A stretch of DNA of 64,000 nt, taken from Saprospiraceae bacterium. GTDB taxonomy: Bacteria > Bacteroidota > Bacteroidia > Chitinophagales > Saprospiraceae. This document shows, piece by piece, positions 6,551 to 47,760 of this stretch. The notes below the pieces were generated by a model. That model did no database searches. It had not been told where the DNA came from and was given only the letters and a program-made list of their open reading frames with translations. Made by a program: the position numbers and the translations under genes. Position 1 is the first letter of the stretch. Every line of letters begins with the position of its first letter. The stretch covers positions 1 through 64,000 of the forward strand of contig JABSSL010000078.1 in assembly GCA_013214355.1 (NCBI GenBank), given 5' to 3'.

Positions 6551-6661
6551 GAATACGGCCAGTACCGACGATGGGTATTTGACATGGGCCGAGATGTAAG
6601 CCATGATTTGGCATCATTTCATTACAGGAAGATTTCCATAATTTAGATAAAAGGTAAGTAT

Positions 6662-6701
6662 AAGACTTGACTACCTCTAGAGTAGTCAGGTCTTTCTTTT
6701 T
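6662..6701 (+). terminator. rho-independent terminator after the repeat-protein gene
   Basis: A 13-bp stem with one G-U pair (AAGACTTGACTAC with GTAGTCAGGTCTT) and a 7-base loop is followed by a T-rich tail (TTTCTTTTT). It lies between the repeat-protein gene and the convergent LytTR gene. Confidence 0.75.
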
Positions 6702-6760
6702 CAAGAGGGTAAATTGGAAGCAGTATCAGGGGAAAAGCATTGAGATAATATGGCCTGACC

Positions 6761-7459: not shown

Positions 7460-8571
7460 TACAGGTCGATCGTTAATTGGGCTTTGTAAATGGGAGCTTC
7501 CTGCTCTATCTTGAATTGATGATGATTAGGATAAATATGCTCCAATCTCTTCTTGAGATTGTCTAAGCCTATCCCTCCAGGTGTATCGCTCGTACTTGGC
7601 TTAAAATTATTCTCGATAGTAAAAGTAATTCGGTTCTGCTCAGCCGTTAGATGAAGGTGTACATAAGCCCCATCTCTCATCCGTTCCACGCCGTGTTTAA
7701 AGGCATTTTCTAGTAGGATAATGAATAACAAAGGAGCAACTTTATAGTCCGAGGCAAGCTGATGGGTAAAACGAATATCTACTTTTTGTTGATAGCGAAT
7801 CTTATGCAGTTCGATGTAATTTTCTAGATAAGTAATCTCATCTGTCAATGGTACTACCTCTTCCCTTCCTTCGTAGATCGTGTAGCGCATCATATCCGAC
7901 AGTTTGAGCACTACCTCAGGAGCCTCATCCGATTTTTCCACTACCAAACCATATAGATTATTCAAGGTATTGAAAAAGAAATGGGGATTGATCTGGCTTT
8001 TGAGCAGCAGCAATTCCGCCTTTGCCTTATCAGACTTAAGAGTAGCTAGCCACCGCCATTGCTCGTAGCCCCACAATAGGGCGAAAACGGGAATGGGGAT
8101 TAACATGACATTAGCAAAATCAAGACGATGATCTACACCCTGATTCGGAGCATTGATGAAGAGAAAGAAATAGTAGGACAAAACTAAGCCGAAAACAAAA
8201 AGAATCAAGACTCTATACTTCCAGACAAATTCGGTCATCATCAGATAAGCCACGCCTATCCAGAATAAGATAATAGCCGGGATCGTAATCGGATTATTTT
8301 GGACCTTCATCAGGCGTTCAGCTACAATGGCTACGACCAATAAGCTCAATACTAGCAAGATCTTGTACAAGGGAAACTTATTGAGCAGGAAAGCGGTCAA
8401 CCACCAACAAAATCCAAAGAGTATACTATTCAGTAAAAGGGAAAGCGCGGGGGTGGCGTATCCCGGGTTTACGATGGAAAAGGTAGCATTGGTGTAAAGT
8501 ACCGCAGCTATACCTCCAGTAATGACTGCGCCCAAAATCAAAGCCCGAGTATTCTTCAAAACACTTCGCAT
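7459..8571 (-). CDS. LytS-like sensor histidine kinase (His_kinase family)
   Basis: A 370-residue inner-membrane kinase. Five or six hydrophobic segments occupy residues ~10-165, with no large extracytoplasmic sensor domain. The cytoplasmic kinase core follows: SQINPHFFFNTLNNLYG with phospho-acceptor His197, then a GHKL ATPase domain with the N-box NAFKHGVERM and a GGIGLDNLKKRL segment. This is the standard partner of LytTR regulators, here translationally coupled to one. The start ATG at 8571 leaves a 211-base divergent region before the hydrolase gene, where the regulator may act. Confidence 0.92.
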   Translation of the reverse strand: MRSVLKNTRALILGAVITGGIAAVLYTNATFSIVNPGYATPALSLLLNSILFGFCWWLTAFLLNKFPLYKILLVLSLLVVAIVAERLMKVQNNPITIPAIILFWIGVAYLMMTEFVWKYRVLILFVFGLVLSYYFFLFINAPNQGVDHRLDFANVMLIPIPVFALLWGYEQWRWLATLKSDKAKAELLLLKSQINPHFFFNTLNNLYGLVVEKSDEAPEVVLKLSDMMRYTIYEGREEVVPLTDEITYLENYIELHKIRYQQKVDIRFTHQLASDYKVAPLLFIILLENAFKHGVERMRDGAYVHLHLTAEQNRITFTIENNFKPSTSDTPGGIGLDNLKKRLEHIYPNHHQFKIEQEAPIYKAQLTIDL

Positions 8572-8782
8572 AACACAAAGGTATCGTTCCTTTCCTTGAC
8601 CGGGAAAGGATTTTGATCAACACCTGAGATTTTGAGTCCAACACCATCATTTTTCTATCAAGTGGTATTGAAGGGATAGAAATGAGGATGTATGCTCCTT
8701 TTCATTGGGTTGATCACAATAATTATAAGGCCTCGATCTGTGACTCTATGTTTGACTCGAATTCACCAAACAAGAGATCATT

Positions 8783-9787
8783 ATGAAAATTTTGCTGAAG
8801 GTTTTAAAGTGGATTGGTTTACTAATTGGATCCATATTGCTACTCATCATTTTTGCTGGATTAGTCTTCCGATTATTTGACACCAAACCACCTGCTCCCG
8901 GTGAATTAGTGGAGGTGGAAGATTTCAAACTCCACATCAATGCGGCTGGGAAAAAAAGCAACAAACCGACCCTAGTCATTGAAGGAGGCTTAGGTGTCCC
9001 GAGTGACCACTATCATTGGTTAAGTGAAACCTTGAAAGATAGCATGCGAGTAGTTCGCTATGACCGAGCCGGGATCGTATACAGCGAGGCCAGCAAGACC
9101 GCTCGCGATGCAGAGACCGTTGTCCGTGAGCTACATACCCTCCTGGAGAAGGCGGGAGAATCTCCGCCCTACATTTTAGCTGGACATTCGATGGGCGGTC
9201 TATTCATTCGCGTTTATGCCCAACTTTATCCAGATGAAGTAGCCGGCTTAGTCTTTTTAGATTCTAGTCACCCCGATTTCCGTGAAAGACTGAATTTTCC
9301 TCCGCCTCCTTCCAAAGAAGGCTTGCTGAAAACCCTAGCCGCGGTAGCCGACGTGGGTGTCTTGACCCTCTTTGATCACGTGTTCGGACCACTCCTGGCT
9401 GCTGAAGGTTTACCACAGGAAGTCAACGATCGCGCGCTGGGCTATACCTATAACGGGAAATACCTCCGAGCTGTCCTGAGAGAGGACCAGGTATCCGCTT
9501 CTGTATTTGAACGCGCCAAAACGGCCAAGGACTTTGGCGCCATGCCTATCCGAGTATTTGCAGCGAATGAAAGACAAATACAGGCCTACCAGCGATACGG
9601 GATCGACCCGGACTGGGCCACTGCGGAGACCATGAAAATGCAACAAGAATTGGCAGACCTCTCTACCGCCGGTAAGCTGATGACGATCAATGGCCATCAC
9701 AATAGCATTTACACCAAAAAGGAAAATGCAGCTATCATTTGTCAAGAAATCCTTCACCTGCTTGATGAAATCCAGACCAGACCTTAA
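8783..9787 (+). CDS. membrane-anchored alpha/beta hydrolase
   Basis: A 334-residue protein with an N-terminal transmembrane anchor (residues ~9-30) followed by an alpha/beta-hydrolase fold. It has an RYDRAG segment and the nucleophile elbow GHSMGG with Ser136. A late INGHHNS segment is likely to provide the catalytic histidine. The domain probably faces the periplasm. Nine bases separate it from the ABC ATPase gene, so the three genes 8783-14260 very likely form one operon. Substrate unknown; esterase or lactonase-like activity is a family-level guess. Confidence 0.8.
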   Translation: MKILLKVLKWIGLLIGSILLLIIFAGLVFRLFDTKPPAPGELVEVEDFKLHINAAGKKSNKPTLVIEGGLGVPSDHYHWLSETLKDSMRVVRYDRAGIVYSEASKTARDAETVVRELHTLLEKAGESPPYILAGHSMGGLFIRVYAQLYPDEVAGLVFLDSSHPDFRERLNFPPPPSKEGLLKTLAAVADVGVLTLFDHVFGPLLAAEGLPQEVNDRALGYTYNGKYLRAVLREDQVSASVFERAKTAKDFGAMPIRVFAANERQIQAYQRYGIDPDWATAETMKMQQELADLSTAGKLMTINGHHNSIYTKKENAAIICQEILHLLDEIQTRP

Positions 9788-9796
9788 GTAACTACC

Positions 9797-10675
9797 ATGA
9801 ATACACTTGTCCTAAAAAACATATCCAAGACCTACGCCAATGGGGTCAAGGCCTTGGACGGAATCAATTTGACCATAGCTAACGGCATGTTTGGCTTGTT
9901 GGGGGCGAACGGGGCTGGAAAGTCCTCCCTGATGCGCACCATTGCTGCCTTGCAGAAACCCTCCGAAGGCTCCGTGATTTTCAATGATGTGGATGTCGTT
10001 AAAACACCTCAGGCTGTCCGAATAGCCCTGGGCTTCTTGCCACAAGAATTCGGGGTATATCCCAAAATATCAGCCCAGGAACTCCTGAATTATCTCGCCG
10101 TTTTGAAAGGTATCAACAATAAAAAGGAGCGCAAAGAACAGGTAGCGACCTTATTGCAACAGACGAATCTCTATCAGCATCGCAAGAAGTCCGTCTATAC
10201 TTTTTCGGGTGGTATGAAACAACGGTTTGGCATTGCACAAGCGCTGTTAGGTAATCCCAAACTGATCATCGTTGATGAACCTACCGCCGGACTTGATCCG
10301 GAAGAAAGAAACCGCTTTCTCAATTTATTGAGCGAAATCGGCAAGCATATCATCGTCATTCTCTCTACCCATATAGTGGAAGATGTCCAGGAACTCTGCA
10401 AGCAAATGGCCATTCTTGCCAAGGGTAAGATCATCGCCTCCGGAAATCCGACAGCTCTCGTAAAGACCATTGCTGGCAAGGTGTGGAAAAAGCCCATCCC
10501 CAAAGCAGAGCTACCGGCTTATCAGGAAAAATATCGCGTCATATCTACGCATCTGGTCGGAGGAGACACCCTAATTAAAGTGCTTTCAGATAGTCAGCCT
10601 AGCCTGGATTTTGAAACCACTAAGGCTGGCCTAGAAGACTATTACTTCTCTCAGATGCATCTCCATTATTTATAG
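9797..10675 (+). CDS. ABC transporter ATP-binding protein (ABC-2 type partner)
   Basis: A 292-residue ATPase with Walker A GANGAGKSS (36-44), Q-loop LPQEFG, signature FSGGMKQR (about 136-143), Walker B IIVDEPT with Glu161, and the switch histidine in STHIVED. The C-terminal ~60 residues form the accessory region usual in ABC-2 exporters. The gene lies 15 bases before the permease/M1 fusion gene, the obvious partner. It supplies the ATP hydrolysis for that transporter at the inner membrane. Confidence 0.92.
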   Translation: MNTLVLKNISKTYANGVKALDGINLTIANGMFGLLGANGAGKSSLMRTIAALQKPSEGSVIFNDVDVVKTPQAVRIALGFLPQEFGVYPKISAQELLNYLAVLKGINNKKERKEQVATLLQQTNLYQHRKKSVYTFSGGMKQRFGIAQALLGNPKLIIVDEPTAGLDPEERNRFLNLLSEIGKHIIVILSTHIVEDVQELCKQMAILAKGKIIASGNPTALVKTIAGKVWKKPIPKAELPAYQEKYRVISTHLVGGDTLIKVLSDSQPSLDFETTKAGLEDYYFSQMHLHYL

Positions 10676-10690
10676 AACTGATTAACAGCT

Positions 10691-13600
10691 ATGTTACCAC
10701 AACTCTTGCGTTTTGAAGTGCTTTATCAATCCAAACAGCGTGCCCTTCCCATTGCGGGTCTAGTATTTTTCTGCCTAGGGTATTTTCTAGGGAAATCGGG
10801 CAATGCGCCTGCCTTGGTCGACTTTAATGCTCCCTTTCAGGTCAGTTACTTCACGGGGAATATGTCACTGATGAGTGTCTTCATTATTATGTTTTTTGCG
10901 GTAAGCGGTGTGATACGCGATAGTAAAGATCGAATGGAGGCCCTCATTTACAGTACGGCCGTAAAGAAGGCAGATTTCTTTTGGAGTAGGTTTATCGGGG
11001 TGTTCCTATTCAGTGTTTTCGCCTTCAGTCTATTTCTTCCCGGCTTCCTGATGGGGGTGTCATTGTCCGGTTTAGACGCTGCGCGGATTGCTCCCTTTCA
11101 ATGGCAAACTTATCTCTGGCCCTTCTTAGTGATTATGGTGCCGAATATCTTTATCTGTACGTCCGTACTTTTTTCGGTGAGTCTCTTATCCAAGCGTAAT
11201 GTGGCAACTTATGCCGCGGCCATTCTCATGTATCTTTTGTATTTCATTATCGGGATTTACTCCAATTCCCCGATGTTTGCTTCCTCCATACCCGCCTCCG
11301 CTGAACAAATGACAAGAGCCGCATTGGCAGATCCCTTTGCCATTTCCACCTTTTTCGAACATACGCAGTTTTGGACACCCTTTGATAAGAGCAATCTTCC
11401 GATGTCCTTCTCTGGGAATTACATTTGGAATCGCCTTCTCTGGATTGGCTTTTCTTTTGTCTTGTTGGGATTTACCTATCGTCTTTTCTCGTTTAGAAAA
11501 ACTGGACAACAAAGGAGACAAAAGCCAAGCCTGCAGCTTGCCCAAATTTCGACCCAGCTTTATCGATCCACCAAAGTTCTAATTAATAGGAGAACCCAGT
11601 GGCGCGCCTTTGGGCATTCCGTGAAAATGGACATCTTCGAAATCATTCAAAGTCTCCCCTTCCTTGCTGTCTTATTCACTCTCTTTGCAGCCCTAGCATT
11701 TGAGCTATATCTCAAATTCTTTGCAGGAGGGTTCCCTGCTGAAAGTTGGCATCCCTTTACCCATTTAGTAATTGAATCAGTCATTGAAATTATCCCGATC
11801 CTTAGCAAGATCTTAATTGTATTCTACAGCGGCGAACTCATCTGGAAGGCACAAGACCGTAAGTTTGATGGGATCCTCAACGCCACTCCTACGCTCAACT
11901 GGGTGTTCTTTCTCTCCAAAATGGTAACACTCACCCTGCTCCCGATGCTCCTCATTACCACCCTTACGGTGGTTTGTATCGCTTTTCAGTTGGTTAATGG
12001 TTTTATGGTGATTGACCTTAAACAATATTTATTGCTTTTCTACCACTATGGAATTTCCATCGTGACTTGGTCTTCGCTTGCCATATTTGTACAAAGCCTC
12101 GCCAAGCACAAATATCTAGGCATGGGCCTTACTGGCTTTGTACTCCTGGCCTTAACCACTCCCCTCTCCTATCATCTAGGCCTTGAACATCCGATGCTAC
12201 GAATTGGAGTAATGCCTTCCATCACCTATTCGAATATGGCAGGCTACGGCATACAAGTTAGCGCCTTTACTACCTATGCCTGCTACTGGGTGGCATTGGG
12301 CATCATTCTGGCTTTGTTTTCCCTAAAATATTGGAATCGACAGCTAATAGAAGCTCGTCGTGACTGGGCAAGGATTTGGGAGGGTCAATGGAAGCGCTCC
12401 GAACTGCTGGCTTTAAGTCTATCCCTTATGGGTTTTATGGCAGCAGGTATTGTTCTCTACCATAAACTAAGCACAGATGGGCAGCACGAGAGTAGGGCCG
12501 CACAGATAGAGTATAGGGAACAGTATGAACGAAAATTTAAGCAGTATGAAGTTCTTCCCAAGCTTACCACAGGTGCAATCCAAACGGAGATTGATATTTA
12601 TCCAGAGGATCAACGGTATTCAATAGCAGCTGAATATCAGTTGGTTAATCGGAATGGCATTCCTGTTCAACAGCTATTCCTAAGTACTACCAAAAAACTC
12701 TCTGCCATACGTCTCGAAAATGCCAATTTAATCTCTGAAGACACCGTATTTGGAACCTACCTTTTTGAGTTTGAACAGCCCATTCAGCCTCAAGAAACAA
12801 CAAGCCTACGATATGAACTCACTCATCAATCTCTCCCATTTAAGCCGGATCACTCCATACTCAGAAATGGAGTTTACCTAAGGCATGAGTTTTTTGAACC
12901 CATACTGGCTTACGATAGAAGCCGCGAACTATCAGATCCGCTAGTCAGACGAAGTCGAGGTCTTCCAGACGGAAATGTAGAGCCCCAAGAAGGCCCTGAA
13001 AATTCTGTTGTCCCGATAGAAGACCAGGACATATCGTTCGAAACCATCATTTCTACCTCAGCTAATCAAGAAGCCCTTGCTCCTGGTGATCTAATCAAAA
13101 AATGGAGCAAGGATGGCAGAAACTTCTATAGGTATCAATACTCAGAAAGGAGCATAGCCGTGATCGCCTATTTATCGGCACAATATGAAGTCAAAAAGCA
13201 CACTTGTGATGGGGTTGAATTAAAATCGTATTACCACCCTGAACACGATATCAATCTTCCAACGATTGAAGCTACTGCATGTGCTACGCTATCTTATGGT
13301 CGAGAGAACTTCGGCCCATACCCTTTCCAACAGCTTCGAGTAGCCGAAATACCTTCCTATTTCCCAAGGGCAGGTGATGCACAGCCGGGTATAATAAGCC
13401 TGGTAGAAGATAAAGTGTACTTGATAGACATTGGCAAAAACAACAGCTTCAATCTGGCAGCCAAGCGTACCGCTGAACAGGTCGCTCACCAATGGTGGGG
13501 CATCTCCTTGACACCCAAAAACGCTCCTGGTGCAGGCTTTCTCACCTTCGGGTTGGCCAAATATACCGCAGCGGTGGTATTAGAAGAAATGTACGGCCAG

Positions 13601-35722: not shown

Positions 35723-36886
35723 ATGAAAACCAAAATCGTTTTAGGATTAGGCTATGGTGATGAGGGCAAGGGACTCACAACTGATTTCCTTTGCCAGCAG
35801 AGCCAACAACCATTGGTCATTCGTTTTTCCGGCGGGCATCAAGCAGGGCATACCGTAGTCACCGAAGAAGGAGAAAGACATGTTTTCTCTAGCTTTGGAG
35901 CTGGTAGCTTAAGGGGAATTCCTACTTACTGGAGTTCTTTCTGCACCCTATCTCCAATCAACTATCTGAATGAATGGTTGGCATTAGAAGCCTTAGGCCA
36001 TACCCCTACCCTGTTCGTAGATGCCTTGGCACCCGTCACCACACCTTATGATGTCTTCTTCAATCGATCTACGGAAAAGAAAAACCAACATGGCAGTTGC
36101 GGTTTAGGCTTTGGTGCGACCATCGCTCGTCAACTCACTCCCTACAAACTCTACGCACAAGATTTACGATATCCGGTGGTAGTGGAGCAAAAATTAAAAG
36201 CCATCGCTCAATTCTACCGAAACCTAGGACAGGACTACTTTACTGACGACGCTTTCTTAGCACAATTGGAGTTGTTCCAACAAGCTGCCGCGGATATCAC
36301 TGACACCTTCACTCTTGTCTATGAAAAGAGCTTCTTTTCGGACATCAAGGCACCTTATTCCGATCTCATCTTTGAAGGTAGTCAAGGGATTCTGCTAGAC
36401 ATGGATTTTGGGTTCTTCCCAAATGTTACCCATGCTTCCACGACCTCTAGAAATGCTTTTTCTCTGATCACTCGAAATCGCTTGTCCATGCCGGAGATAT
36501 TCTACATTACCCGCGCCTATCAAACCCGGCATGGCAACGGTTTCCTATCCAATGAACAATTCCCCTTACACTATGCTCCAAATCCTCAAGAAACCAACAA
36601 ATACAATCCCTGGCAGGGGCATCAGCGCTGCAGCATCCTAGATCTTGATATGATCAATTATGCCTTGGCCTGCGATGATAACTTTTCGGGTAAATCCAAG
36701 AAGCATTTGGTAGTGACCTGTCTGGATCAATTGGAGGGACCGATTCAGGCATCTAAGGATGGGATAATTCAGCATTTTGCCTCGTCCATGGATCTAGTAG
36801 AGCATTTAAACATTTCTTTTGCCTCGGTCTTGGAAAGCTGGTCCGAATGCGGGGCGAAAATGCGCACTCACCATCTGAGTTACTGA
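35723..36886 (+). CDS. divergent adenylosuccinate-synthetase-like enzyme
   Basis: A 387-residue enzyme, about 40 residues shorter than PurA. It keeps the GTPase-like P-loop with catalytic Asp (GLGYGDEGKG, where PurA has QWGDEGKG) and the catalytic His in GGHQAGHTVV. FEGSQGILLDMDFG matches the PurA FEGAQGTLLDIDHG segment. The IMP loop is altered (HGSCGLGFGATIAR in place of GTTGRGIGP), and the aspartate/IMP motif around GRRRRTGWLD reads GHQRCSILDL. It probably couples GTP hydrolysis to ligation on a purine-like or other nucleotide, but substrates likely differ from IMP and aspartate. The ATG at 35723 places the P-loop at the N-terminus as in PurA. It is not PurZ-like, since the catalytic Asp is kept. 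Confidence 0.75.
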   Translation: MKTKIVLGLGYGDEGKGLTTDFLCQQSQQPLVIRFSGGHQAGHTVVTEEGERHVFSSFGAGSLRGIPTYWSSFCTLSPINYLNEWLALEALGHTPTLFVDALAPVTTPYDVFFNRSTEKKNQHGSCGLGFGATIARQLTPYKLYAQDLRYPVVVEQKLKAIAQFYRNLGQDYFTDDAFLAQLELFQQAAADITDTFTLVYEKSFFSDIKAPYSDLIFEGSQGILLDMDFGFFPNVTHASTTSRNAFSLITRNRLSMPEIFYITRAYQTRHGNGFLSNEQFPLHYAPNPQETNKYNPWQGHQRCSILDLDMINYALACDDNFSGKSKKHLVVTCLDQLEGPIQASKDGIIQHFASSMDLVEHLNISFASVLESWSECGAKMRTHHLSY

Positions 36887-36897
36887 GCGGGTGAGTA
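36882..36897. repeat. 16-bp junction repeat, copy 1
   Basis: ACTGAGCGGGTGAGTA covers the stop codon of the adenylosuccinate-synthetase-like gene. Two further copies lie at the next gene junction. Confidence 0.6.
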
Positions 36898-36910
36898 GTA
36901 GTAAAAAATT

Positions 36911-37525
36911 ATGGAAAAAGAAAATATTCGAGTGATTTTCGCTCGCGAGCACACCACCATCTTCCCCAAACTGGGTGTGTTCTTGGCCGGGCCGACGCCC
37001 CCTGAAGACCAAATGAGCCAGGGCTGGCGAAGAACGGTCATAGATCGCCTTCGGGAAGACAAAAGGCTAGATCCTAGCATGACCGTAGTTGCCCCAGAAC
37101 CTCAAAACTGTAGCTGGTCAGGTATAGATATTCATGAACATGGCCCTCTGTTGAATGACACCCTGAATAAGCAAATTCCCTGGGAATGGCAGTATTTACA
37201 GGCCTGTGACATCACTGCCTTTTGGCTGCCAACCTATTGGGACACTACTTCTGCCGAGAACTTTCCAGCTAATATTGGACCGACTTCTCGCTGGGAATTT
37301 GGCTACTTCTTGCAGGAATATTTGAAGAATCCCCAGCGGCGTCATTTTATCGTAGGAGGGCCAGAGGATGCCGAAAGTGTCAAGTGGGCCAGGCGAATCG
37401 CAGCCGTGCATGGGATCAAATGGCATAGCCTTCCCAAAGACCTAAAAAGGGAACAGGTAGCCGCTTCATTTATCGAAGAAATAGCCGATACCTTGTATGA
37501 GTCGAAAATAACACTGAGCGGGTGA
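36911..37525 (+). CDS. nucleoside 2-deoxyribosyltransferase-like protein
   Basis: A 204-residue protein with the Rossmann-like fold of the nucleoside deoxyribosyltransferase superfamily. GVFLAGPTP (residues 22-30) is the nucleotide-loop signature. QIPWEWQYLQACDITAFWLP forms the central strand, and TSRWEFGYF holds the expected catalytic glutamate. Relatives cleave or exchange N-glycosidic bonds of (deoxy)nucleosides or nucleotides. The next gene encodes a nucleoside hydrolase, so base removal appears twice in the same operon. Fourth gene of the operon, 24 bases after the synthetase-like gene. Confidence 0.75.
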   Translation: MEKENIRVIFAREHTTIFPKLGVFLAGPTPPEDQMSQGWRRTVIDRLREDKRLDPSMTVVAPEPQNCSWSGIDIHEHGPLLNDTLNKQIPWEWQYLQACDITAFWLPTYWDTTSAENFPANIGPTSRWEFGYFLQEYLKNPQRRHFIVGGPEDAESVKWARRIAAVHGIKWHSLPKDLKREQVAASFIEEIADTLYESKITLSG

Positions 37526-37544
37526 GTAACTGAGCAGGTGAGTG
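37513..37544. repeat. 16-bp junction repeat, copies 2 and 3
   Basis: ACTGAGCGGGTGAGTA (37513-37528, identical to copy 1) is followed directly by ACTGAGCAGGTGAGTG (37529-37544, two differences). Copy 2 contains the stop codon of the deoxyribosyltransferase-like gene. Confidence 0.65.
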
Positions 37545-37584
37545 TTTGAAAATTCACTACCTTGTCGCCTCAAAATCCTAACCT

Positions 37585-38520
37585 ATGCCACAAGCTCTCC
37601 TTTTCGATCATGATGGCGGTGTCGATGATCTCCTATCGCTCATGCTCGTCCTCACAATGAACCATATTGACCTCAAAGGAGTCTCCATCACACCTGCAGA
37701 TTGCATTGGCGATTATGCCGAAGAAAGCACTCGAAAACTGCTACAATTATTCTCGCAGCCAGGCGTACCCGTGGCACGTGGCAATTATCATGGCATCAAT
37801 GCTTTTCCATTGGAGTGGCGGGCTGGTCCTATGGTGGTGAATGCCCTGCCCTTGATGATTAATGTGGAGGTAGCAAAGCCGACGGAGATACTCGAGAGTG
37901 TCGAACTGCTGGCCGAAGAGCTCAAAAAGGTAGCAGACTCCATTCCCGTATTGATGACGGGGCCCTGCTCTAATCTGGTGCGTACGTTACAAAGATATCC
38001 GGAACTAAGTGCCAAAGTAAAGGAAGTGATTTGGATGGGGGGAGCGGTAGATACAGGAGGAAATGTGGTTACGTATAATCACAATAGCAGCGCAGAATGG
38101 AATGTATTTTGGGATCCCATTGGTTCCAAGACGCTGTTTGAGCTTGGTATTCCGATCACCTTGTTCCCACTGGATGTGACCAATTCCGTACCGGTTAATT
38201 ACAGCTTTCTAAAGGACTTGGCCAGAATTGCGGAATACGATGCGGCTAATTTGGCTGGTCAGTTTTGGGCCACAACCCTAAACACTATCCCCGCTTATGA
38301 GTATACCTATTATATGTGGGATATTTTAGCTACCAGCTATCTTGGTATTCCTGATGCCTTCGAATTTGAGGAAATCCCCTTGACCGTTGCTACCCAAGCT
38401 CCAAATGCCGGACAGACGATTCGCTTAAAAGCGGGAGCGCATAAAGCCAAGGTGGCTATGAAGGTGGATAAGAATTACTTCTATCAATACCTATTACAAC
38501 AATTCAGTATAAACTTCTAA
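37585..38520 (+). CDS. inosine/uridine-preferring nucleoside hydrolase family protein
   Basis: A 311-residue hydrolase of the IunH fold. The N-terminal Asp cluster DHDGGVDD (D8, D10, D14, D15) binds the catalytic calcium and matches DTDPGIDD of the family. MTGPCSNLV and VIWMGGAV are the typical ribose-binding and core motifs, NSSAEWNVFWDP gives the NxxxExNxxxDP ligand loop, and YMWDILA replaces the usual late HDP motif. Family members release the base from a ribonucleoside. Four bases separate it from the NudK-like gene. Fifth gene of the operon. Confidence 0.88.
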   Translation: MPQALLFDHDGGVDDLLSLMLVLTMNHIDLKGVSITPADCIGDYAEESTRKLLQLFSQPGVPVARGNYHGINAFPLEWRAGPMVVNALPLMINVEVAKPTEILESVELLAEELKKVADSIPVLMTGPCSNLVRTLQRYPELSAKVKEVIWMGGAVDTGGNVVTYNHNSSAEWNVFWDPIGSKTLFELGIPITLFPLDVTNSVPVNYSFLKDLARIAEYDAANLAGQFWATTLNTIPAYEYTYYMWDILATSYLGIPDAFEFEEIPLTVATQAPNAGQTIRLKAGAHKAKVAMKVDKNYFYQYLLQQFSINF

Positions 38521-38524
38521 CGAC

Positions 38525-39106
38525 ATGAATAACCCCAAAGTAAAAATCAACAAAGTAGAATTACTATCTGATAATTGGTATACACTCCGAAAGTATAATT
38601 TTGACTTCCAAAAAGACGACGGGAGCTGGGAAACGCAAGAGCGAGAAGCCTACGACCGGGGCAATGGCGCTGCGATTCTTTTGTACAATGTAGAACAAAA
38701 GACGGTGATACTGACGCGCCAATTCCGAATGCCCACCTATGTCAATGGCAACGAATCTGGGCTAATGATCGAAGCCTGTGCAGGCATACTAGATGAGGAC
38801 AATCCCGAGGATTGTATCCGGCGCGAAACGGAAGAAGAAACGGGTTACCAAGTGGATAAGGTCGAAAAGGTCATGGAAATCTATATGTCGCCGGGATCAG
38901 TGACAGAGATTCTGTATCTCTTCATCGCTGCTTACAATAAGCAAATGAAAATCCATGATGGTGGCGGCGTGCCAGACGAACAGGAAAACATTGAAGTGCT
39001 AGAGATCCCCTTTGAAGAAGCCTATCACATGATTAAGACCGGCGAAATCAAGGATGCCAAAACAGTGCTGTTGCTCCAGCATCTCAAACTTCGTCAAATT
39101 CTCTAG
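38525..39106 (+). CDS. nudK: NudK-like Nudix hydrolase
   Basis: A 193-residue Nudix protein very like E. coli NudK (GDP-mannose and related NDP-sugar pyrophosphatase). It opens with LLSDNWYTLRKYNFDF, has YDRGNGAAILLYN, RQFRMPTYVNGNESG, the Nudix box with RRETEEETGY, and MSPGSVTE. The end EIKDAKTVLLLQHL also matches. It lacks a winged helix, so it is not itself an NrtR-type regulator. As the last gene of the six-gene operon it could hydrolyse a nucleoside-diphosphate derivative made or consumed by the upstream enzymes. Start ATG at 38525, four bases after the preceding stop. Confidence 0.85.
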   Translation: MNNPKVKINKVELLSDNWYTLRKYNFDFQKDDGSWETQEREAYDRGNGAAILLYNVEQKTVILTRQFRMPTYVNGNESGLMIEACAGILDEDNPEDCIRRETEEETGYQVDKVEKVMEIYMSPGSVTEILYLFIAAYNKQMKIHDGGGVPDEQENIEVLEIPFEEAYHMIKTGEIKDAKTVLLLQHLKLRQIL

Positions 39107-39649: not shown

Positions 39650-41236
39650 ATGGTCACCAATCCCTATGAGGTATTAGATTTATTCTTACAAAAGAATAAG
39701 TATTATTTCAATAAAAGAGAATTACAACTACAACTAGAAGCCCACCCGAATTATCCTAGTGTTAGGTCCTTTACGGACATCCTGGACTTCTATCGGGTGG
39801 AACACATTGCCGCTACTGTTCCAGAGGAAAGTTTCGATGAACTTCCAAATTGCTGGTTAGCAGTGGTTTCGCCAAAGGGCTTCCGTCAGATTGCCATGGT
39901 AGAAAGGCAAGTCGATCAGGTCAAACTAGCCTCAGAGGATGGCCGTACCAACCTTACAAAAGCTGAATTTCTTAAGCAGTGGGAAGGTGTGATACTGGCC
40001 GTTGAACCAAATGAAAACACCAGCTCTAGTTGGCGAAGCTCATCTTTTACTACTATTCTCATTGCTTTGTTGTCAGTCTGTATCGGAGCTAACCTATGGG
40101 CGCAAGAGATAGGATGGCCTTCCATTCTCTATATCCTACTATCTGCTCTGGGTCTCTATTTGTCCATCTTGGTGCTCAAGACCGAGCTTGGTTTTCAATC
40201 TGCCGTGACGGATAAGTGGTGCCGGATCAATGAAGCGACAGATTGCACGGAGGTAATCACCAGTAAAGGGAGTAAACTTCCCATGAATGCTTCCTTAGGA
40301 GATTTAGCCTTGATTTACTTCGTCCTAACAATATGTACAACGGCTATTTTAGCGGCTCCTGCCACCTCCTTTTACCCCCTAGCCTTGGCTTCTTTACCCA
40401 TCATCTTGTACACGCTCTTGTATCAGTGGAGAGAGGTGAAGAAATGGTGCACACTTTGTCTGGGTATTAGTGCCGTTTTACTGGCCCAATTCCTAGTGTT
40501 GTACTTAGCTGATCGATCCATAGAGCTAGCCATGTCGACTTACATTAGCATAGCTGGACTATTTCTCCTCCTTACGCTGGGTTGGCGATATACTAAATCC
40601 CTGCTTCAGGAACACCAAGGTTTTAAGAGGGAGGCGCTAGAGTACTCCAGTTTCAAAAAAGAAGCCGATAGCTTCAAACCTCTGCTCCAGGCTCAAAAAC
40701 AATTCCAGCTATCAAACATGGATCACGGCAGCGCACTGATCATGGGCAATCCAAATGCCAAGTTCAAACTCTACGCTGTCACCAACCCCTCCTGCACCTA
40801 CTGTAAGCCCACCTTTCTGGGCTACCAAAAGTTGTTGGAACGATATGGAGATCGCATAAGCTTGGTGTTGCGCTTCAATGTTAGCCTGGAAGATAGTAGC
40901 AGCCCTACTTTACATATCGCAGCCCATACGGTAGCCATCTACAAAAATCTAGGGCCCGCCAAAGCTTTAAAGGCACTGGCTGAATGGTTTCAAGAACAGA
41001 ACTTTGAGGCTTGGCAAACTAAGTATGGCCAAAACTTAGAAACCGGTGCCATCAATATTCTTCAGCAGCATCGAGATTGGTGTAATGAGCAAGGTCTCAT
41101 TTTCACCCCAGTCAGCATCTTACACGAACACCTCCTCCCTCCGTATTACAGCATGGAGGATATATATTACCTATTGGAAGATCTTCTTCCCCAATTAAGT
41201 GCGACAAATAATGAGGTAGAGGAAGTAGCTGCTTAG
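39650..41236 (+). CDS. VKOR-thioredoxin fusion with C39-like N-terminal domain
   Basis: A 528-residue inner-membrane thiol oxidoreductase with three parts. Residues 1-115 resemble a C39-peptidase-like domain without a catalytic cysteine at the expected place. Residues ~133-315 form a VKOR-like membrane domain with Cys191/Cys199 and the CxxC pair C267-T-L-C270. Residues ~355-520 form a thioredoxin-like domain with C382-T-Y-C385, probably periplasmic. Such fusions form disulfides in exported proteins and pass electrons to quinones. The ATG at 39650 is preferred to an upstream TTG. It directly precedes a cysteine-rich GG-leader peptide gene and its exporter, so the peptide is the likely substrate. 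Confidence 0.85.
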   Translation: MVTNPYEVLDLFLQKNKYYFNKRELQLQLEAHPNYPSVRSFTDILDFYRVEHIAATVPEESFDELPNCWLAVVSPKGFRQIAMVERQVDQVKLASEDGRTNLTKAEFLKQWEGVILAVEPNENTSSSWRSSSFTTILIALLSVCIGANLWAQEIGWPSILYILLSALGLYLSILVLKTELGFQSAVTDKWCRINEATDCTEVITSKGSKLPMNASLGDLALIYFVLTICTTAILAAPATSFYPLALASLPIILYTLLYQWREVKKWCTLCLGISAVLLAQFLVLYLADRSIELAMSTYISIAGLFLLLTLGWRYTKSLLQEHQGFKREALEYSSFKKEADSFKPLLQAQKQFQLSNMDHGSALIMGNPNAKFKLYAVTNPSCTYCKPTFLGYQKLLERYGDRISLVLRFNVSLEDSSSPTLHIAAHTVAIYKNLGPAKALKALAEWFQEQNFEAWQTKYGQNLETGAINILQQHRDWCNEQGLIFTPVSILHEHLLPPYYSMEDIYYLLEDLLPQLSATNNEVEEVAA

Positions 41237-41331
41237 CGCTATAGCACGCTATTTCCTCCCTCTGTAACACCTCCTATTCGAATCCGGATTTCTCTTTTTA
41301 TAACCAAATTATTTCATCAAATTTTTCTTGT

Positions 41332-41520
41332 ATGAAAAAGCAAATCTTGAGTTTGAAAGACGCTAAAGTATTAGACAAAGCCAAGCAAAAGGAAATCAAT
41401 GGCGGTCGCCCCGGTTGTTTATCTAACTGTTCTGGAAAGCCAAATGGCACCATGTGTTGCATGGGTGGTCATCCCGGTTGCCCAGGATACTGCATCCAAG
41501 GGGATTGTATGCCTTGGTAA
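41332..41520 (+). CDS. cysteine-rich GG-leader peptide precursor (bacteriocin-like)
   Basis: A 62-residue precursor. Residues 1-25 form a typical double-glycine leader of Bacteroidota (MKKQILSLKDAKVL then KQKEINGG), to be cut after Gly25 by a C39 peptidase. The 37-residue core begins RPGC and contains seven cysteines, including one CC pair and two PGC motifs, plus many Gly/Pro. An odd Cys count leaves one free thiol, a dimer or an unusual modification. The neighbouring VKOR-thioredoxin, C39 exporter and HlyD genes supply oxidation and export. Whether it is antibacterial, a signal or a metal-binding peptide is unknown. No lanthionine, radical-SAM or other modifying enzyme is in the cluster. 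Confidence 0.75.
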   Translation: MKKQILSLKDAKVLDKAKQKEINGGRPGCLSNCSGKPNGTMCCMGGHPGCPGYCIQGDCMPW

Positions 41521-41533
41521 TATAAAATCCTGT

Positions 41534-41560
41534 AGCAGGCCTGAGCTTCTTGGGCCTGCT
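41534..41560 (+). promoter_or_regulatory. hairpin between precursor and exporter genes
   Basis: AGCAGGCC and its perfect complement GGCCTGCT flank an 11-base loop just after the precursor stop codon. No T-run follows, so it is more likely an attenuator or mRNA-stabilising hairpin, which would give more precursor than exporter mRNA. Confidence 0.55.
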
Positions 41561-41654
41561 CTACCCCACCATCTACATCAGCCCTCGAACTGATTTAAGC
41601 TTTTCTAACGGCGTACATCAGTTCCTTGACCATTTTGACAGTAGAACCTAATTC

Positions 41655-42140
41655 ATGCCTACGTTTCCTTTTTACAAACAAGCTGAATCTAAAGACTGTG
41701 GCCCCACTTGCCTCAAGATCATCTCAAAGCACTATGGGAAGCTGGTAGATATTAAAGCCTTGCGCGAACTTGCCGAAACGACCAGAATGGGTAGTAATTT
41801 GTTTGGTGTCAGTACCGCTGCGGAGGCCATTGGGTTTCGCAGCCTAGCCTTACAAGTCAACTATCAGCAATTGCGCCAAGCCCAACTCCCTTGCATTCTC
41901 CATTGGAATCATGACCACTTCGTAGTACTGTACAAGATAAAGCGAGATCGAATCTATATCTCAGATCCGGGTCATGGATTAATTCACTATGTTAAAGATG
42001 ATTTCCTTCAGAGATGGGTAAGTCAATCGGCTTCAGAGGAGACACAAGAGGGGATCGCTCTTCTCTTGGAACCTACCCCTCAATTTTACGAAGAAGACAC
42101 CCTTGCTGAAGAACCTTCAACCTTTAACCTAGCTTACTAA
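41655..42140 (+). CDS. C39 peptidase half of an interrupted peptidase-containing ABC exporter
   Basis: A 161-residue C39 peptidase domain with catalytic Cys15 (SKDCGPTCL), His88 (HDHFVVLY) and Asp104 (ISDPGHG). The domain should cleave the GG leader of the adjacent peptide on the cytoplasmic side. The frame closes at TAA (42138-42140, codon 162). The same frame continues for 67 sense codons with two transmembrane helices and then through the ABC half, 730 residues in total, the normal size of a peptidase-containing ABC transporter (PCAT). As written it yields a free peptidase domain that may still be active. Confidence 0.85.
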   Translation: MPTFPFYKQAESKDCGPTCLKIISKHYGKLVDIKALRELAETTRMGSNLFGVSTAAEAIGFRSLALQVNYQQLRQAQLPCILHWNHDHFVVLYKIKRDRIYISDPGHGLIHYVKDDFLQRWVSQSASEETQEGIALLLEPTPQFYEEDTLAEEPSTFNLAY

Positions 42141-43847
42141 TCGCGCTATCTTTTTAAGTATAAAAACCTAGTCGTCCAACTCATTATTGGACTCCTGGCT
42201 GCTAGTTTACTGCAACTGATTTTCCCCTTCCTTACACAAAGCGTCGTAGATATCGGAATTAAGCACCAGGACATTAACTTCATTTACCTGATTCTATTTG
42301 CTCAACTGGCCCTTTTCTTTGGTAAAACAGCGGTTGAAGTATTGAGAAGATGGATATTGCTTCACCTCAGTACACGGATAAACATCTCGCTAGTTTCCGA
42401 CTTCTTCATTAAGCTCATGAGCCTTCCTATTGCCTACTTCGACACCAAGATGACCGGTGATATTTTACAACGTATCAACGATCACAAGCGCATCGAAAGG
42501 ATACTAACTACCTCCTCTATTAGCGTGCTATTCTCGCTGGTTAATCTACTCATTTTCGGCTTGGTGTTAGCCTACTATGATCTTCGCATTTTCGCCATCT
42601 TCTTCATCGGAAGCCTGCTCTACTTTGGATGGATTTTACTGTTTTTTAGAAAGCGCAAAAAACTAGACTACAAACAGTTCGCCGAGATCAGTAAGGAACA
42701 AAGCAAAGTAATTGAAATGATCAACGGTATGCAAGAGGTGAAGCTGCACAATGCTGAACGCCAGAAACGTTGGAGCTGGGAACATGTGCAAGCCCGTTTG
42801 TTTAAGGTTTCTATTCAAAACCTGGCCTTGGAACAATACCAAAGTGTGGGCTCTTCCTTCATCAATGAGCTGAAGAATATCTTCATTACCATTGTTGCTG
42901 CCTTGCTGGTGATTCAAGGGGAGATCACCCTGGGAATGATGTTGGCTATCGCGTTTATCGTTGGGCAGTTGAATGCTCCTATCGGTCAATTGATCAACTT
43001 TCTAAGAGAACTACAGGATGCCAAAATTTCCCTCGAACGCCTGGGTGAAATACATCAATTGAAAGCAGAAGAAGATCCGCTTGATCAAAAGATCAAAGCA
43101 TTGCCCAGGGGGCTAGATTTACAGCTTAAAGGCCTCAGTTTCCGCTACAAAGGCACTGATCAATACGTACTGCAGCACCTGAGTTTTAAAATTCCTGCTA
43201 ATAAGGTAACCGCCATTGTCGGTGTAAGTGGGAGTGGAAAAACGACCTTGATGAAACTTCTCCTGAAGTTCTACCATCCACAAACAGGTGGGGTGGACTA
43301 TGGCCCTTTTGACCTCAAAAACATATCTCAGCACAGTTGGCGAGATAAGGTGGGAGTGGTCATGCAAGAGGGCTACATATTTAACGATACCATCGCCAAC
43401 AATATCGCAGTGGGCCAGCCATACGTAGATAAGGAGCGACTACGACTCGCCGTGGATGTAGCTAATATCCGAGAGTACATCGAGCGGCTTCCGCTGAGCT
43501 ATAATACCCCAATTGGAATGGAAGGGATGGGATTAAGCACGGGACAAAAGCAACGATTGCTCATTGCGCGGGCAGTATACAAGGACCCGGATATCCTTTT
43601 CTTTGATGAAGCTACCTCCGCACTGGATGCCAATAACGAAAAGGCCATCATGGAAAAACTCAATCGGTTTTTCACAGATAAAACAGTTCTGATTATTGCA
43701 CATCGTTTAAGTACGGTGAAAAATGCCCATCAGATAGTCGTTTTAAATCAAGGAAGAGTGGTCGAATTGGGAGACCATCGAACTTTGGTAGCGCAAGGAG
43801 GATACTATTACCAATTGGTTAAAAATCAACTAGAACTTGGCAACTAG
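42141..43847 (+). pseudogene. ABC transmembrane/ATPase half of the interrupted peptide exporter
   Basis: The frame continues in phase after the TAA at 42138: SRYLFKYKN, then the first two TM helices (LIIGLLAASLLQLIFPF and FIYLILFAQLALFFG), the rest of the six-TM domain, and an ATPase with Walker A GVSGSGKTT, a signature reading LSTGQKQR instead of LSGGQ, Walker B ILFFDEATSALD and the H-loop AHRLS. No ATG lies between the stop and the second helix; the first usable alternative codon, a TTG at 42342, would lose two helices. All domains are otherwise intact, so the defect is the single nonsense codon. It needs read-through, sequence correction or is truly broken. Confidence 0.8.
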
Positions 43848-43848
43848 C

Positions 43849-45147
43849 ATGGAAGCAAACCAACTTGATCAAATACAATTGAGGAGTGAAGAAGTCCAGG
43901 AAATTCTCACACGGGTACCACACTGGTTGGTGCGCTGGGGCAATCTAGTGATCTTCGGCATATTAATGATGCTCTTGTATTTATCCTGGGTAGTCAAATA
44001 CCCAGATATCATTGCGGCGGAAGCCAGTTTGACCACAGTCATTCCTCCTCAAAAAGAGTACGCCAATGCTTCCGGGCGCCTAGAAATCATCTTTGTCAGC
44101 AACAATCAAACGGTCGAAAGGGGCCAAAGATTAGCCGTCATTGAAAACACAGCAAGCACAAAAGATGTGTTACGCCTACAAGAAATGGTAGATCAGATAG
44201 CCCTTAATCAATCCACCTTTTATTTCCCTTTTGACTCCCTTCCCGTCTTACTCTTAGGTGAGATCGAAACATCATTTACGCAATTCGAAACGGACTACTA
44301 CAGCTATTTACTCAACAAAGAATGGGATCCTTTTCAGGTCGAAGAAAGTGCCAATGCCATCTCTAAGACGGAACTTCGCCAACGCTTACTCGCCCTGCAA
44401 CAACAGATGGAGCTGGGGGAGAAAGAACTAAGCATCAAAGCTAAGGACCTGCGGCGTCAGGAACAACTACACAAAGATGGAGCGATCTCTCAAATGGACT
44501 TGGAAGAGAAACAGCTATCATTCGTACAGGTCCAAAAAAACCAAAACAACATCATTCTTTCCATTTCGCAGATCAAACAAGCTATCGGCGAGGCGCAAAA
44601 GCGAAGTCAGGCTACCAAAATCAACCGGAACAAGACCGAATTAGCCTTACTTAAAACTGTCATTCGTTCCTTTCAACAGTTGAAGAATGCTATCAAAGAT
44701 TGGGAGCTGAAATATATGCTCAAATCTGAGATTGAGGGCCAAGTCAGCTTTCTTGACTACTACACCGCTAATCAGGTCGTGCGACAAGGGGATCTAGTCT
44801 TCACCCTCATCCCAGCAGATAACCGGGAATACCTTGCTCGCCTGCGTGCCCCTAAGCAGAACGCAGGCAAGCTAGCCAGAGGTCAAGCTGTTAATATCCG
44901 AGTGGACAATTATCCAAGTGATGAGTTTGGCGTGCTGAAAGGTATCGTTAAACACGTCTCCCCTTTGACTGATCGAGAGGGCAATTATATCCTTGAGGTG
45001 CAACTCCCTGACAACTTGATCACCAGCTATAATCAGACCATCGAGTTTCGACAGGAGATGACCGGTTCCGCAGAGATCATTACCGAAGATCTACGGTTGA
45101 TAGACCGTTTCTTTTACCAACTTCGTCAAATCCTCCATCGAACTTAA
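43849..45147 (+). CDS. HlyD-family membrane fusion protein
   Basis: A 432-residue periplasmic adaptor. A single transmembrane helix lies at ~residues 32-52 (LVIFGILMMLLYLSWVV), followed by a lipoyl-like half (GRLEIIFVSNNQTVERGQRLAVI). A long coiled-coil hairpin follows at ~130-290 (KELSIKAKDLRRQEQLHKDG-type heptads), then the second lipoyl half and a beta-barrel (VRQGDLVFTLIP). It begins one base after the exporter stop codon, which shows tight coupling with that gene. It should link the ABC exporter to an outer-membrane channel not encoded here. The ATG at 43849 is preferred to an overlapping TTG. Confidence 0.88.
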   Translation: MEANQLDQIQLRSEEVQEILTRVPHWLVRWGNLVIFGILMMLLYLSWVVKYPDIIAAEASLTTVIPPQKEYANASGRLEIIFVSNNQTVERGQRLAVIENTASTKDVLRLQEMVDQIALNQSTFYFPFDSLPVLLLGEIETSFTQFETDYYSYLLNKEWDPFQVEESANAISKTELRQRLLALQQQMELGEKELSIKAKDLRRQEQLHKDGAISQMDLEEKQLSFVQVQKNQNNIILSISQIKQAIGEAQKRSQATKINRNKTELALLKTVIRSFQQLKNAIKDWELKYMLKSEIEGQVSFLDYYTANQVVRQGDLVFTLIPADNREYLARLRAPKQNAGKLARGQAVNIRVDNYPSDEFGVLKGIVKHVSPLTDREGNYILEVQLPDNLITSYNQTIEFRQEMTGSAEIITEDLRLIDRFFYQLRQILHRT

Positions 45148-46493: not shown

Positions 46494-47138
46494 CTATTGC
46501 TTTTCTTGCAATAGTTTCCAAACGCCAAAACTGATAATCATACCAAGGATCGGGGCCACGATATAGGCCCAAAGATGTACCAGATTGCCGTTGATTACCG
46601 CTGGACCTATCGACCTAGCTGGATTCATGGAAGCCCCACAGATAGGACCAGCGAACATCGCCTCCAACAGGACAGTCGCACCAATCGCCGCACCTGCCCA
46701 ATGACTAATCTCTTTAGAAGTAGAGATGACCTGGAAAATGACAAACATGAGGAAGAAACTTAGCACAACCTCCAGTACGAAGGATTGCTGGATAGAGCCG
46801 GCTGGGAGCGTTTCGCCCAGACCTTTCGCCTCAGGAAACAGAAAGCGCAGTAGGCCGCTAGCTAGCAAAGCCCCCAGTACTTGCGCGATAATATAAGGTA
46901 GCAGATGTTGAACTGGAAACTTCTTTGCTATGGTGAAGGCAATCGTAACAGCAGGATTGATATGGGCACCCGATAGCTCACCGATAGAATAGACCATGGC
47001 CATTACGATCAAACCGAATGTGATGGCAATCCCCTGATGCCCAACAGCCCCTCCGCTGACCTCATTGATGACAATAGCACCGGTACCACAAAAAACGAGT
47101 GCAAAAGTTCCAACTAATTCCGCTAAGTATTTATTCAT
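46494..47138 (-). CDS. aquaporin-family channel, possible arsenite channel (AqpS-like)
   Basis: A 214-residue MIP-family channel with six transmembrane segments and both half-helix motifs, NPA at 61-63 (AHINPAVTIAF) and NPA at 172-174 (SMNPARSIGPA). The gene overlaps the arsenate-reductase-like gene upstream by 8 bases, so they are co-translated. An aquaglyceroporin in an ars operon can let arsenite flow out after arsenate reduction, as shown for AqpS of Sinorhizobium. Here that role is inferred from position. Pore-selectivity residues were not determined. Confidence 0.85.
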   Translation of the reverse strand: MNKYLAELVGTFALVFCGTGAIVINEVSGGAVGHQGIAITFGLIVMAMVYSIGELSGAHINPAVTIAFTIAKKFPVQHLLPYIIAQVLGALLASGLLRFLFPEAKGLGETLPAGSIQQSFVLEVVLSFFLMFVIFQVISTSKEISHWAGAAIGATVLLEAMFAGPICGASMNPARSIGPAVINGNLVHLWAYIVAPILGMIISFGVWKLLQEKQ

Positions 47139-47760
47139 TGACTAGGCTAAATGCATAAAAAATTTCTCTTCCAATTTGCCTCACTCGCTCATCGTAGCGG
47201 GCCGTTTCTTCTGGCGTATCATCTGCCGCTTTGGGATCATCATAGGTCAAGGGCAACCGCAATTCTACCCCTGGAATGAAGGGACAATTTTCATCTGCAT
47301 CTGAACAAGTCATGATGGCGGCAAACTTGGACTGTGGATTACGGGGATGATCGTATACCTTACTGAAGCAGACTAGTGATTCTGCGTGATCTGCATAGCT
47401 AACTGAGTATATAGGATTGTCTCCTTCACCGCCTACTATTCGAAATCCAGCTCGTTTCATAGCCGCCACCGCACGAGGGTTGAATGCGGTAGCTTCTGTA
47501 CCACCAGAAAAGGTCTTCACGCTTGAAACCCCATAGTAATAGGCCGCTGCTGCTGCCCAAATTTGCGCTAAATGGCTTCGTCGAGAATTATGGGTACAGA
47601 TAAAGTTAAGCGCGATGCGCTCAGCCGTACTTCTCGCTTCTACATAGGAAGCTAATTGTTGCAGTTTTTCTTTTCTAGCTGCGGGGATTAAATCCGCCTC
47701 ATTAATCAAATCTTCAACAAATGAGGATAAATCAGATTGGAGCTCCATTCTTAGTAGCAT
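47131..47760 (-). CDS. low-molecular-weight phosphatase/arsenate reductase-like protein
   Basis: A 209-residue protein with an N-terminal helical extension (~50 residues) and an LMW-PTP-type domain. C55-THNSRR-S is the CX5R phosphate/arsenate loop. YADHAESLVCFSKVYDHPRN and MTCSDADENCPF carry further cysteines that could serve redox relay in an ArsC-type mechanism. The ATG at 47748 is an equally good start. Forms a two-gene operon with the aquaporin. The context favours arsenate reduction over protein dephosphorylation, but no ArsR gene is visible. Confidence 0.8.
   Translation of the reverse strand: MLLRMELQSDLSSFVEDLINEADLIPAARKEKLQQLASYVEARSTAERIALNFICTHNSRRSHLAQIWAAAAAYYYGVSSVKTFSGGTEATAFNPRAVAAMKRAGFRIVGGEGDNPIYSVSYADHAESLVCFSKVYDHPRNPQSKFAAIMTCSDADENCPFIPGVELRLPLTYDDPKAADDTPEETARYDERVRQIGREIFYAFSLVNE

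Follow-up and report, generated by a model that had tools for sequence, protein, structure and literature searches.

The known system most similar to the locus described here is that of the bacteroidetocins (class IIf; Coyne et al. 2019), whose loci place a thiol oxidoreductase gene beside the genes for the peptide and for a peptidase-domain ATP-binding cassette (ABC) transporter; deletion of the oxidoreductase gene attenuates activity, according to the available text of the bacteroidetocin paper (PMC6671954). We analysed a 64,000-nucleotide stretch of a Saprospiraceae bacterium (contig JABSSL010000078.1, positions 1 to 64,000; hereafter the window), in which positions 39650-45147 of the plus strand carry the genes for a C39-like/VKOR/thioredoxin fusion protein, a Cys-rich precursor peptide with a double-glycine (GG) leader, a C39-type ABC exporter and an HlyD-type adaptor. 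We propose, with a probability of roughly 0.58, that the fusion is a precursor-directed disulfide installer, that is, an inverted VKOR that would oxidise the GG-leader precursor under guidance of its leader, before cleavage and export.

The bacteroidetocin loci resemble the window cluster in belonging to Bacteroidota and in combining a Cys-bearing GG-leader peptide, a C39-type ABC exporter and a thiol oxidoreductase gene. Two marks of class IIf given in the available text, at least two Cys residues and a thiol oxidoreductase gene (the latter for the majority of regions), have their counterparts in the seven Cys residues and the fusion of the window, whereas the third, a leader of 15-16 amino acids, does not agree with the 25-residue leader found here. 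Bacteroidetocins A and B have a 15-residue leader and a 42-residue mature peptide with four Cys residues, compared with 25 residues, 37 residues and seven Cys in the window. In addition, bacteroidetocin regions carry a gene for a protein with five transmembrane (TM) helices, none of which was seen in the window cluster, and the window cluster contains an HlyD gene. No unassigned membrane-protein gene lies between the NUDIX gene (38525) and the gene that follows HlyD (45151), an interval that was not searched with the sequence of the five-TM protein. The terms 'VKOR', 'C39' and 'HlyD' do not occur in the main text of the bacteroidetocin paper, and the oxidoreductases were compared by description only (PMC6671954).

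The GG leader, the C39-ABC exporter and the HlyD adaptor, which mark GG-leader class II bacteriocins and microcins, are all present in the window, with the exporter interrupted in this genome. Class II microcins of the microcin V type use the same three components, and we know of no dedicated oxidase among them. The VKOR of Aeropyrum pernix, which we take to be an inverted VKOR, is linked to disulfides in two compartments by the title of a study cited in PMC12453122. This protein is archaeal, unlike the window fusion, and we know of no peptide cluster or C39 domain associated with it.

The fusion also resembles two groups of described proteins. Like the VKOR-thioredoxin fusions represented by Synechococcus VKOR (PDB 4nv2/4nv5), it has a four-helix core, redox Cys pairs and a C-terminal thioredoxin domain; it differs in adding an N-terminal pseudo-C39 domain, an extra helix (TM0) and a reversed charge bias. 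Like the C39-like domains (CLDs) of HlyB-type exporters, its N-terminal domain combines a C39 fold (in the predicted model) with the loss of the catalytic Cys. Such degenerate domains are tied to substrate recruitment in the available text of PMC6363468; there the CLD sits on the exporter, whereas in the window it sits on the oxidase. In a VKOR phylogeny, the VKORs of Bacteroidetes are noted to have 'additional N-terminal domains'; the words 'C39' and 'peptidase' are absent from its available text (PMC4555120); we infer that these are probably the same proteins as the C39-like/VKOR/thioredoxin fusions. Two papers on Bacteroidales (PMC10352776 and PMC8546649) name no such oxidase as far as term matches in their available text go. 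Among the matches listed in open-licence full texts, no title or abstract opening dealt with a system joining VKOR to C39, a bacteriocin or a leader, or joining a knottin or cystine knot to a GG leader, a bacteriocin or Bacteroidetes.

The four genes follow one another on the plus strand as the fusion (528 amino acids; 39650-41236), the precursor (62 amino acids; 41332-41520), the exporter frame (41655-43847) and the HlyD adaptor (432 amino acids; 43849-45147). The host is Lewinella-like, with a genome of 11.2 Mb, and its closest named relative is an uncultured Lewinella with 95% identity in the fusion. The same gene order was found in two congeners and in one distant Saprospiraceae genome, and comparison with the nearest congener, G001 (locus L022), gave dN/dS values of 0.093 (fusion), 0.12 (peptide), 0.029 (exporter) and 0.054 (HlyD), indicating that the cluster is not a chance arrangement. 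No match to the fusion or the peptide was found in a third congener, the genome of which is 80% complete. The host genome contains a single VKOR match and two C39 exporters besides that of the cluster, and no convincing second member of the window peptide family was found in it. A first-pass annotation of this DNA, made from the sequence alone, had described four consecutive genes here. The genes are real and their order was correctly read, including the 62-residue precursor with seven Cys residues after a GG leader and the HlyD adaptor; the exporter, which had been taken as intact, is broken by an in-frame TAA (42138-42140) in the window and is open in congeners G001 and G002.

The composition of the fusion given in the same annotation, a VKOR-thioredoxin protein with a C39-like domain, was borne out. 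The VKOR family PF07884 matched the window protein with 43.3 bits against a cut-off of 27.5 (E 5e-11) and matched 36/36 aligned fusions at E <= 0.1. Thioredoxin_4 fell just under its cut-off (22.9 versus 23.2 bits) and Pfam C39 was sub-threshold (15.2 versus 22 bits) in the window fusion; C39 matched 32/36 aligned fusions at E <= 0.1, and an hhalign comparison of the N-terminal domain with exporter C39 domains gave a probability of 97.1%, as against 3.3% or less in five column shuffles. The model predicted from 36 sequences (mean pLDDT 81.7) has three domains. Residues 2-126 (39653-40027) matched the C39 domains of PCAT1, ComA and a leader-bound double-glycine protease (Z about 14-15, 2.7-2.9 A, 118-125 residues), residues 154-291 (40109-40522), the four-helix core, matched human and Synechococcus VKOR (Z about 14-15), and residues 350-516 (40697-41197) matched ScsC, BdbD and DsbA/DsbG proteins, with Z up to 17.9 for ScsC. 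PCAT1, VKOR and DsbA-like chains were likewise found among solved structures by the 36-row family profile; the window VKOR core alone found no match there.

Six redox Cys residues are invariant in 36/36 fusions: C191, C199, C267 and C270 in the VKOR core (a loop pair and a CxxC), and 382 and 385 in the thioredoxin domain. At the C39 catalytic columns of the same proteins, Gln, Cys and His were each found in 0/36, the Cys column holding 35 gaps and one other residue, whereas all four catalytic residues were kept in 14/14 neighbouring exporters, indicating that the N-terminal domain is a pseudo-C39 domain. The fusion is entered as 'vitamin K epoxide reductase family protein' in 7/8 publicly annotated plasmid records. 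That the thioredoxin domain might reshuffle disulfides as a reductase or isomerase, and not be the primary oxidase, is suggested by its best fold matches, ScsC, DsbG and related proteins; we regard this as very unlikely, as the domain is fused to VKOR and the six redox Cys residues are invariant, which is the usual arrangement of an oxidase.

The fusion is linked to GG-leader peptides well beyond the window, as the first-pass annotation would have it. The fusion profile matched 41/395 sampled Bacteroidota genomes (E <= 1e-15) and the window fusion matched 7/148 relatives (E <= 1e-10), the host genome being counted in both cases. A collection scan yielded 39 named-contig loci with a fusion, several of which stop at contig ends; tblastn with the window proteins found an exporter relative in 22 of them and an HlyD relative in 20. 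A single fixed rule places the start of a GG-leader open reading frame (ORF) within 250 nucleotides downstream of the fusion in 53/75 copies, which are related sequences with four near-identical pairs. The same rule found such an ORF at 17/384 ends of other long ORFs in loci L059-L097, some of the 17 being probably sister peptides. ORF ends were chosen as the control because exporter loci lacking a fusion gave too few peptides: 20 such C39-exporter regions yielded, by eye, about eight convincing GG-leader peptides with 0-4 Cys residues (3/8 odd), too small a set to serve as a control for Cys parity. The strict rule misses other start codons and spacings (for example, the peptides of L061, L075 and L079, which were found otherwise) and miscuts a few leaders (L035 and L042), and its match in L046 is probably spurious.

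The first peptides found in this way have at least two core Cys residues in 52/53 cases. Eight of the 53 are members of the window's seven-Cys family, and 44 of the remaining 45 have even counts (0 once, otherwise 2, 4, 6 or 8), the last having seven. When the search was extended to 1500 nucleotides under a stricter leader rule, 91 distinct cores were obtained, of which 82 were even and nine odd, seven of the nine being from the window family; at 45% identity, these cores formed 62 clusters, with 58 even, three odd and one mixed, into which most of the window family falls. Since paired disulfides require even Cys counts, the even counts of unrelated cores point to disulfides, which had been named earlier as the likely modification. 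The C-C-CC-C-C order of knottins was found in 11/47 six-Cys cores compared with 2.6% of shuffled cores, a pattern that was picked after examples had been seen, and two of the 11 are near-duplicates.

Several fusion loci showed features of their own. L190, on a Parabacteroides distasonis plasmid (NZ_OY725766), carries at 5908-13524 a fusion followed by genes for a six-Cys GS-leader peptide and a LanC-family protein, as well as a C39-ABC gene and two genes of glycosyltransferase type; other modifications may accompany the oxidase there. The annotation of L191 (NZ_OY725771, 5397-6942) divides the fusion into two overlapping genes, for a C39-domain and a thioredoxin-domain protein, which may reflect a frameshift or a natural split. 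The fusion copies of G346, G405, G330 and G426 are fragmented or contain internal stops; extra copies may decay often, or these may be sequence errors. Among the genomes searched for GG-leader peptides of this type, G230 and G452 had the most first-look candidates (73 and 76, the next having 55); of the 16 candidates scored per genome, nine and 12 matched.

The side of the membrane on which the fusion works decides how its pseudo-C39 domain could act. Six TM helices are predicted in the window fusion; the first, TM0 (residues 132-151; 40043-40102), precedes the part that matches Synechococcus VKOR, which starts at residue 154-155, and is absent from that protein. With six helices, the N-terminal and thioredoxin domains would lie on the same side, that of the redox Cys residues. 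The density of Lys and Arg (K/R) was greater on this side in 37/38 fusions (0.137 versus 0.035) and in 35/36 of a second set; the sequences are related to each other, one protein (L032 and L139) was counted in both sets, and L093, which lacked anchors, was dropped. Among the exceptions, L095 was mis-anchored and L094, from Chitinophaga, is real. In contrast, K/R density was greater on the Cys side in 0/22 canonical VKORs without a C39 domain (0.028 versus 0.226). The ten residues preceding the CxxC contained on average 2.32 K/R and 0.08 Asp or Glu in fusions, compared with 0.05 and 0.73 in canonical proteins, and a TM0-like helix preceded the core in 36/36 and 29/36 fusions but in 0/18 canonical proteins with enough sequence. 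No signal-peptide-like stretch was found in the first 55 or so residues of 36 fusions by a crude hydropathy measure. Application of the positive-inside rule predicts an inverted fusion, with its redox sites and its pseudo-C39 and thioredoxin domains in the cytoplasm.

Most VKOR members have their active site on the extracytoplasmic side, and the same orientation here would make the fusion a periplasmic oxidase with both soluble domains outside, acting on the peptide after export; the pseudo-C39 domain would then serve as a scaffold or dock to the exporter or the adaptor. VKOR-thioredoxin fusions of known orientation, such as Synechococcus VKOR, act outside the cytoplasm, ScsC, DsbG and BdbD are the nearest matches of the thioredoxin domain, and disulfides are favoured in the periplasm. 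We nevertheless consider this reading unlikely: the charge bias is contrary to that of canonical VKORs, the even number of helices brought about by TM0 would require translocation of a folded N-terminal domain of about 130 residues with no signal-peptide-like stretch, and a leader-binding domain outside would find no leader. The first-pass annotation had suggested leader binding by the C39-like domain without considering inversion. Because the usual VKOR orientation together with TM0 would place this domain in the periplasm, leader binding gains support only if the enzyme is inverted.

If the fusion is inverted, as we predict, TM0 would flip the VKOR core so that the pseudo-C39 domain, the VKOR redox Cys residues and the thioredoxin domain face the cytoplasm. 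The pseudo-C39 domain, having a C39 fold and no catalytic site, would grip the GG leader there, the thioredoxin CxxC would oxidise the Cys residues of the core, and the two VKOR Cys pairs would relay the electrons to the quinone pool. The exporter, by its true C39 domain, would next receive the oxidised precursor and cut it after GG, and the core would be exported through the ABC exporter, HlyD and an outer-membrane channel. In the LahT C39 domain, hydrophobic leader residues at positions -4, -7 and -12 are seated in pockets (available text of PMC6363468); the window leader (25 amino acids; 41332-41406), with Leu at -12 and Ile at -4, fits two of these three positions, and has Gln at -7. On the wider proposal, that inverted VKORs with pseudo-C39 leader recognition form a pathway akin to those of ribosomally synthesised and post-translationally modified peptides, which would install disulfides before export and has diversified over Bacteroidota, including scaffolds with the knottin order, we see the chances as evenly balanced.

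The precursor ends its leader with INGG, and its 37-residue core (41407-41517) has the Cys spacing C-x3-C-x8-CC-x6-C-x3-C-x4-C. The calculated average mass of the reduced core, 3819.5 Da, agrees with the peptide of about 3.8 kDa that had been expected. The precursor shares 94% identity with those of two congeners and 50% with that of the distant Saprospiraceae genome. It had been thought that the core matched no peptide family; it is a member of a seven-Cys family that we found in Saprospiraceae and Flavobacteriaceae. All eight aligned close members keep seven Cys residues, with five Cys columns invariant and the first and fourth Cys shifting. Among the relatives, L101 and L102 have five Cys residues (family-profile E 2.5e-11 and 2.7e-11), L062, which adjoins a fusion, has four, and the six-Cys core of L082 shares the central motif of the family. 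Homologues lacking conserved Cys residues had been named in advance as evidence against the disulfide proposal; as the five columns common to the eight members also occur, by eye, in L101 and L102, the seven-Cys claim is weakened and not refuted. As a whole, the earlier observation was confirmed in part, and its interpretation was partly supported and right in spirit.

Judged by which Cys residues the five- and four-Cys relatives have lost, the first and fourth may form a pair, with the fifth as the odd one, and one thiol may be reserved in the family for dimerisation or a further modification. The L101 and L102 peptides, at 1501-1695, form an orphan branch that is perhaps served in trans. The window peptide matched 0 families in Pfam (E <= 1) and NCBIfam (E <= 10), and one PHROG of unknown function (E 0.014), which is not usable as a family; one of eight relatives weakly matched NF047798, 'bacteriocin-like protein' (E 0.14). 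AlphaFold gave a weak model of the core (mean pLDDT 74.5), and the core, with seven Cys residues, does not have the six-Cys C-C-CC-C-C framework of the inhibitor cystine knot. Several candidates were set aside. Matches of the peptide profile to prothrombin, a radical-SAM protein and thiolases among solved structures (E >= 0.15) were taken as chance, and those of the weak core model to tick evasins (class A evasin fold; best Z 3.6) and disintegrins (Foldseek E >= 0.7) were not used. Lanthionine or radical-SAM modification was rejected, in agreement with the first reading, as Pfam found no such domain in 16 protein pieces of the cluster and its flanks (for the exporter, among the matches listed). 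S-glycosylation of the odd Cys, as in glycocins (available text of PMC12457901), was also considered; no glycosyltransferase-like gene was seen beside the seven-Cys family in a check by eye of L073, L074, L076, L085 and L089.

The peptide might also be a conserved signal or structural peptide and not a bacteriocin, which would fit either orientation of the fusion. The cores of congeners L022 and L023 are identical although their fusion genes have diverged (dS about 1.8), and Pfam scans of the cluster and flanks recognised no immunity-like gene. However, export by a GG leader, C39 and HlyD is typical of microcin-like bacteriocins, and we find a signalling or structural role rather doubtful. Bacteroidetocin regions are likewise without an obvious immunity protein in the available text (PMC6671954), which also speaks against reading much into its absence.

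The exporter gene encodes a C39 peptidase domain with its catalytic residues kept (161 amino acids; 41655-42140), which closes at the in-frame TAA at 42138-42140; the rest of the frame (42141-43847) encodes the ABC membrane domain and the ATPase. The next in-frame ATG, GTG or TTG, at 42342, lies 67 residues past the stop, within the membrane domain. A scan against a defence library yielded ATPase-type matches to the exporter and nothing else. In G001 and G002, the exporter is uninterrupted (730 amino acids; 98% and 94% identity). Purifying selection acts on the genes, that of the exporter included, so that the stop either arose recently or is a sequence error. Export may be broken in the window genome, and would need read-through or one of the two other C39 exporters unless the stop is a sequence error. 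The locus could be decaying in this host, with the exporter a pseudogene and the peptide staying in the cell, again irrespective of the orientation of the fusion. The position of the stop between the C39 and membrane domains and the intact exporter of the two congeners favour such decay, whereas the purifying selection on the genes (exporter dN/dS 0.029 versus L022) and the two other C39 exporters of the genome argue against it; we hold it to be possible, though not the expected case.

Several observations weigh against an inverted oxidase that acts before export. The predicted orientation derives from charge bias and helix count, and the loops of the opposite side are short; the canonical VKORs used for comparison come mainly from other Bacteroidota classes, with only L156 from the order of the window, and include near-duplicates. 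The thioredoxin domain resembles extracytoplasmic oxidases and isomerases (ScsC, DsbG and BdbD), a reducing cytoplasm works against disulfides, and Asp is kept at its C39 catalytic column in 2/36 pseudo-C39 domains. With regard to the peptides, 22/75 fusion copies have none by the strict rule, the five-Cys relatives L101 and L102 have no adjoining fusion, and the odd Cys count of the window family leaves one thiol unpaired or bonded between molecules. In addition, L076/L089 carry a fusion and a seven-Cys peptide at 7983-9921 with no C39 exporter found within about 8 kb on either side, and the exporter stop puts the function of the cluster in the window genome in doubt.

The usual view is that bacterial peptides acquire their disulfides after export. 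Leader-guided disulfide formation in the cytoplasm would, if true, be a new logic for bacterial disulfide peptides; the predicted inversion is the unexpected element that makes oxidation before export testable. It would also account for the N-terminal domain of Bacteroidetes VKORs that had gone without identification, and could allow portable production of folded knottin-like peptides in ordinary laboratory hosts. The fusion gene would further be a simple handle for genome mining; here it gave the 91 distinct Cys-rich cores.

Regulator-like genes of the response-regulator/LytTR type were seen by eye near and upstream of the fusion in L082 (6215-6958), L074 (7469-7810) and L025 (12000-12740), and none was seen in the window. 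Promoter-like sites numbered 11 compared with 10.9 in shuffled sequence, and terminator-like sites 10 compared with 5.7; neither was used as evidence. Upstream of the fusion, adenylosuccinate-synthetase-like, nucleoside 2-deoxyribosyltransferase-like, inosine-uridine hydrolase and NUDIX genes are consecutive at 35723-39106 on the plus strand, and this nucleoside/nucleotide cluster is conserved, as G001 and G002 carry like-sized genes in the same order. On the minus strand at 46494-47760, a MIP-channel gene adjoins a gene with a sub-threshold match to a low-molecular-weight phosphatase, perhaps forming an arsenic pair.

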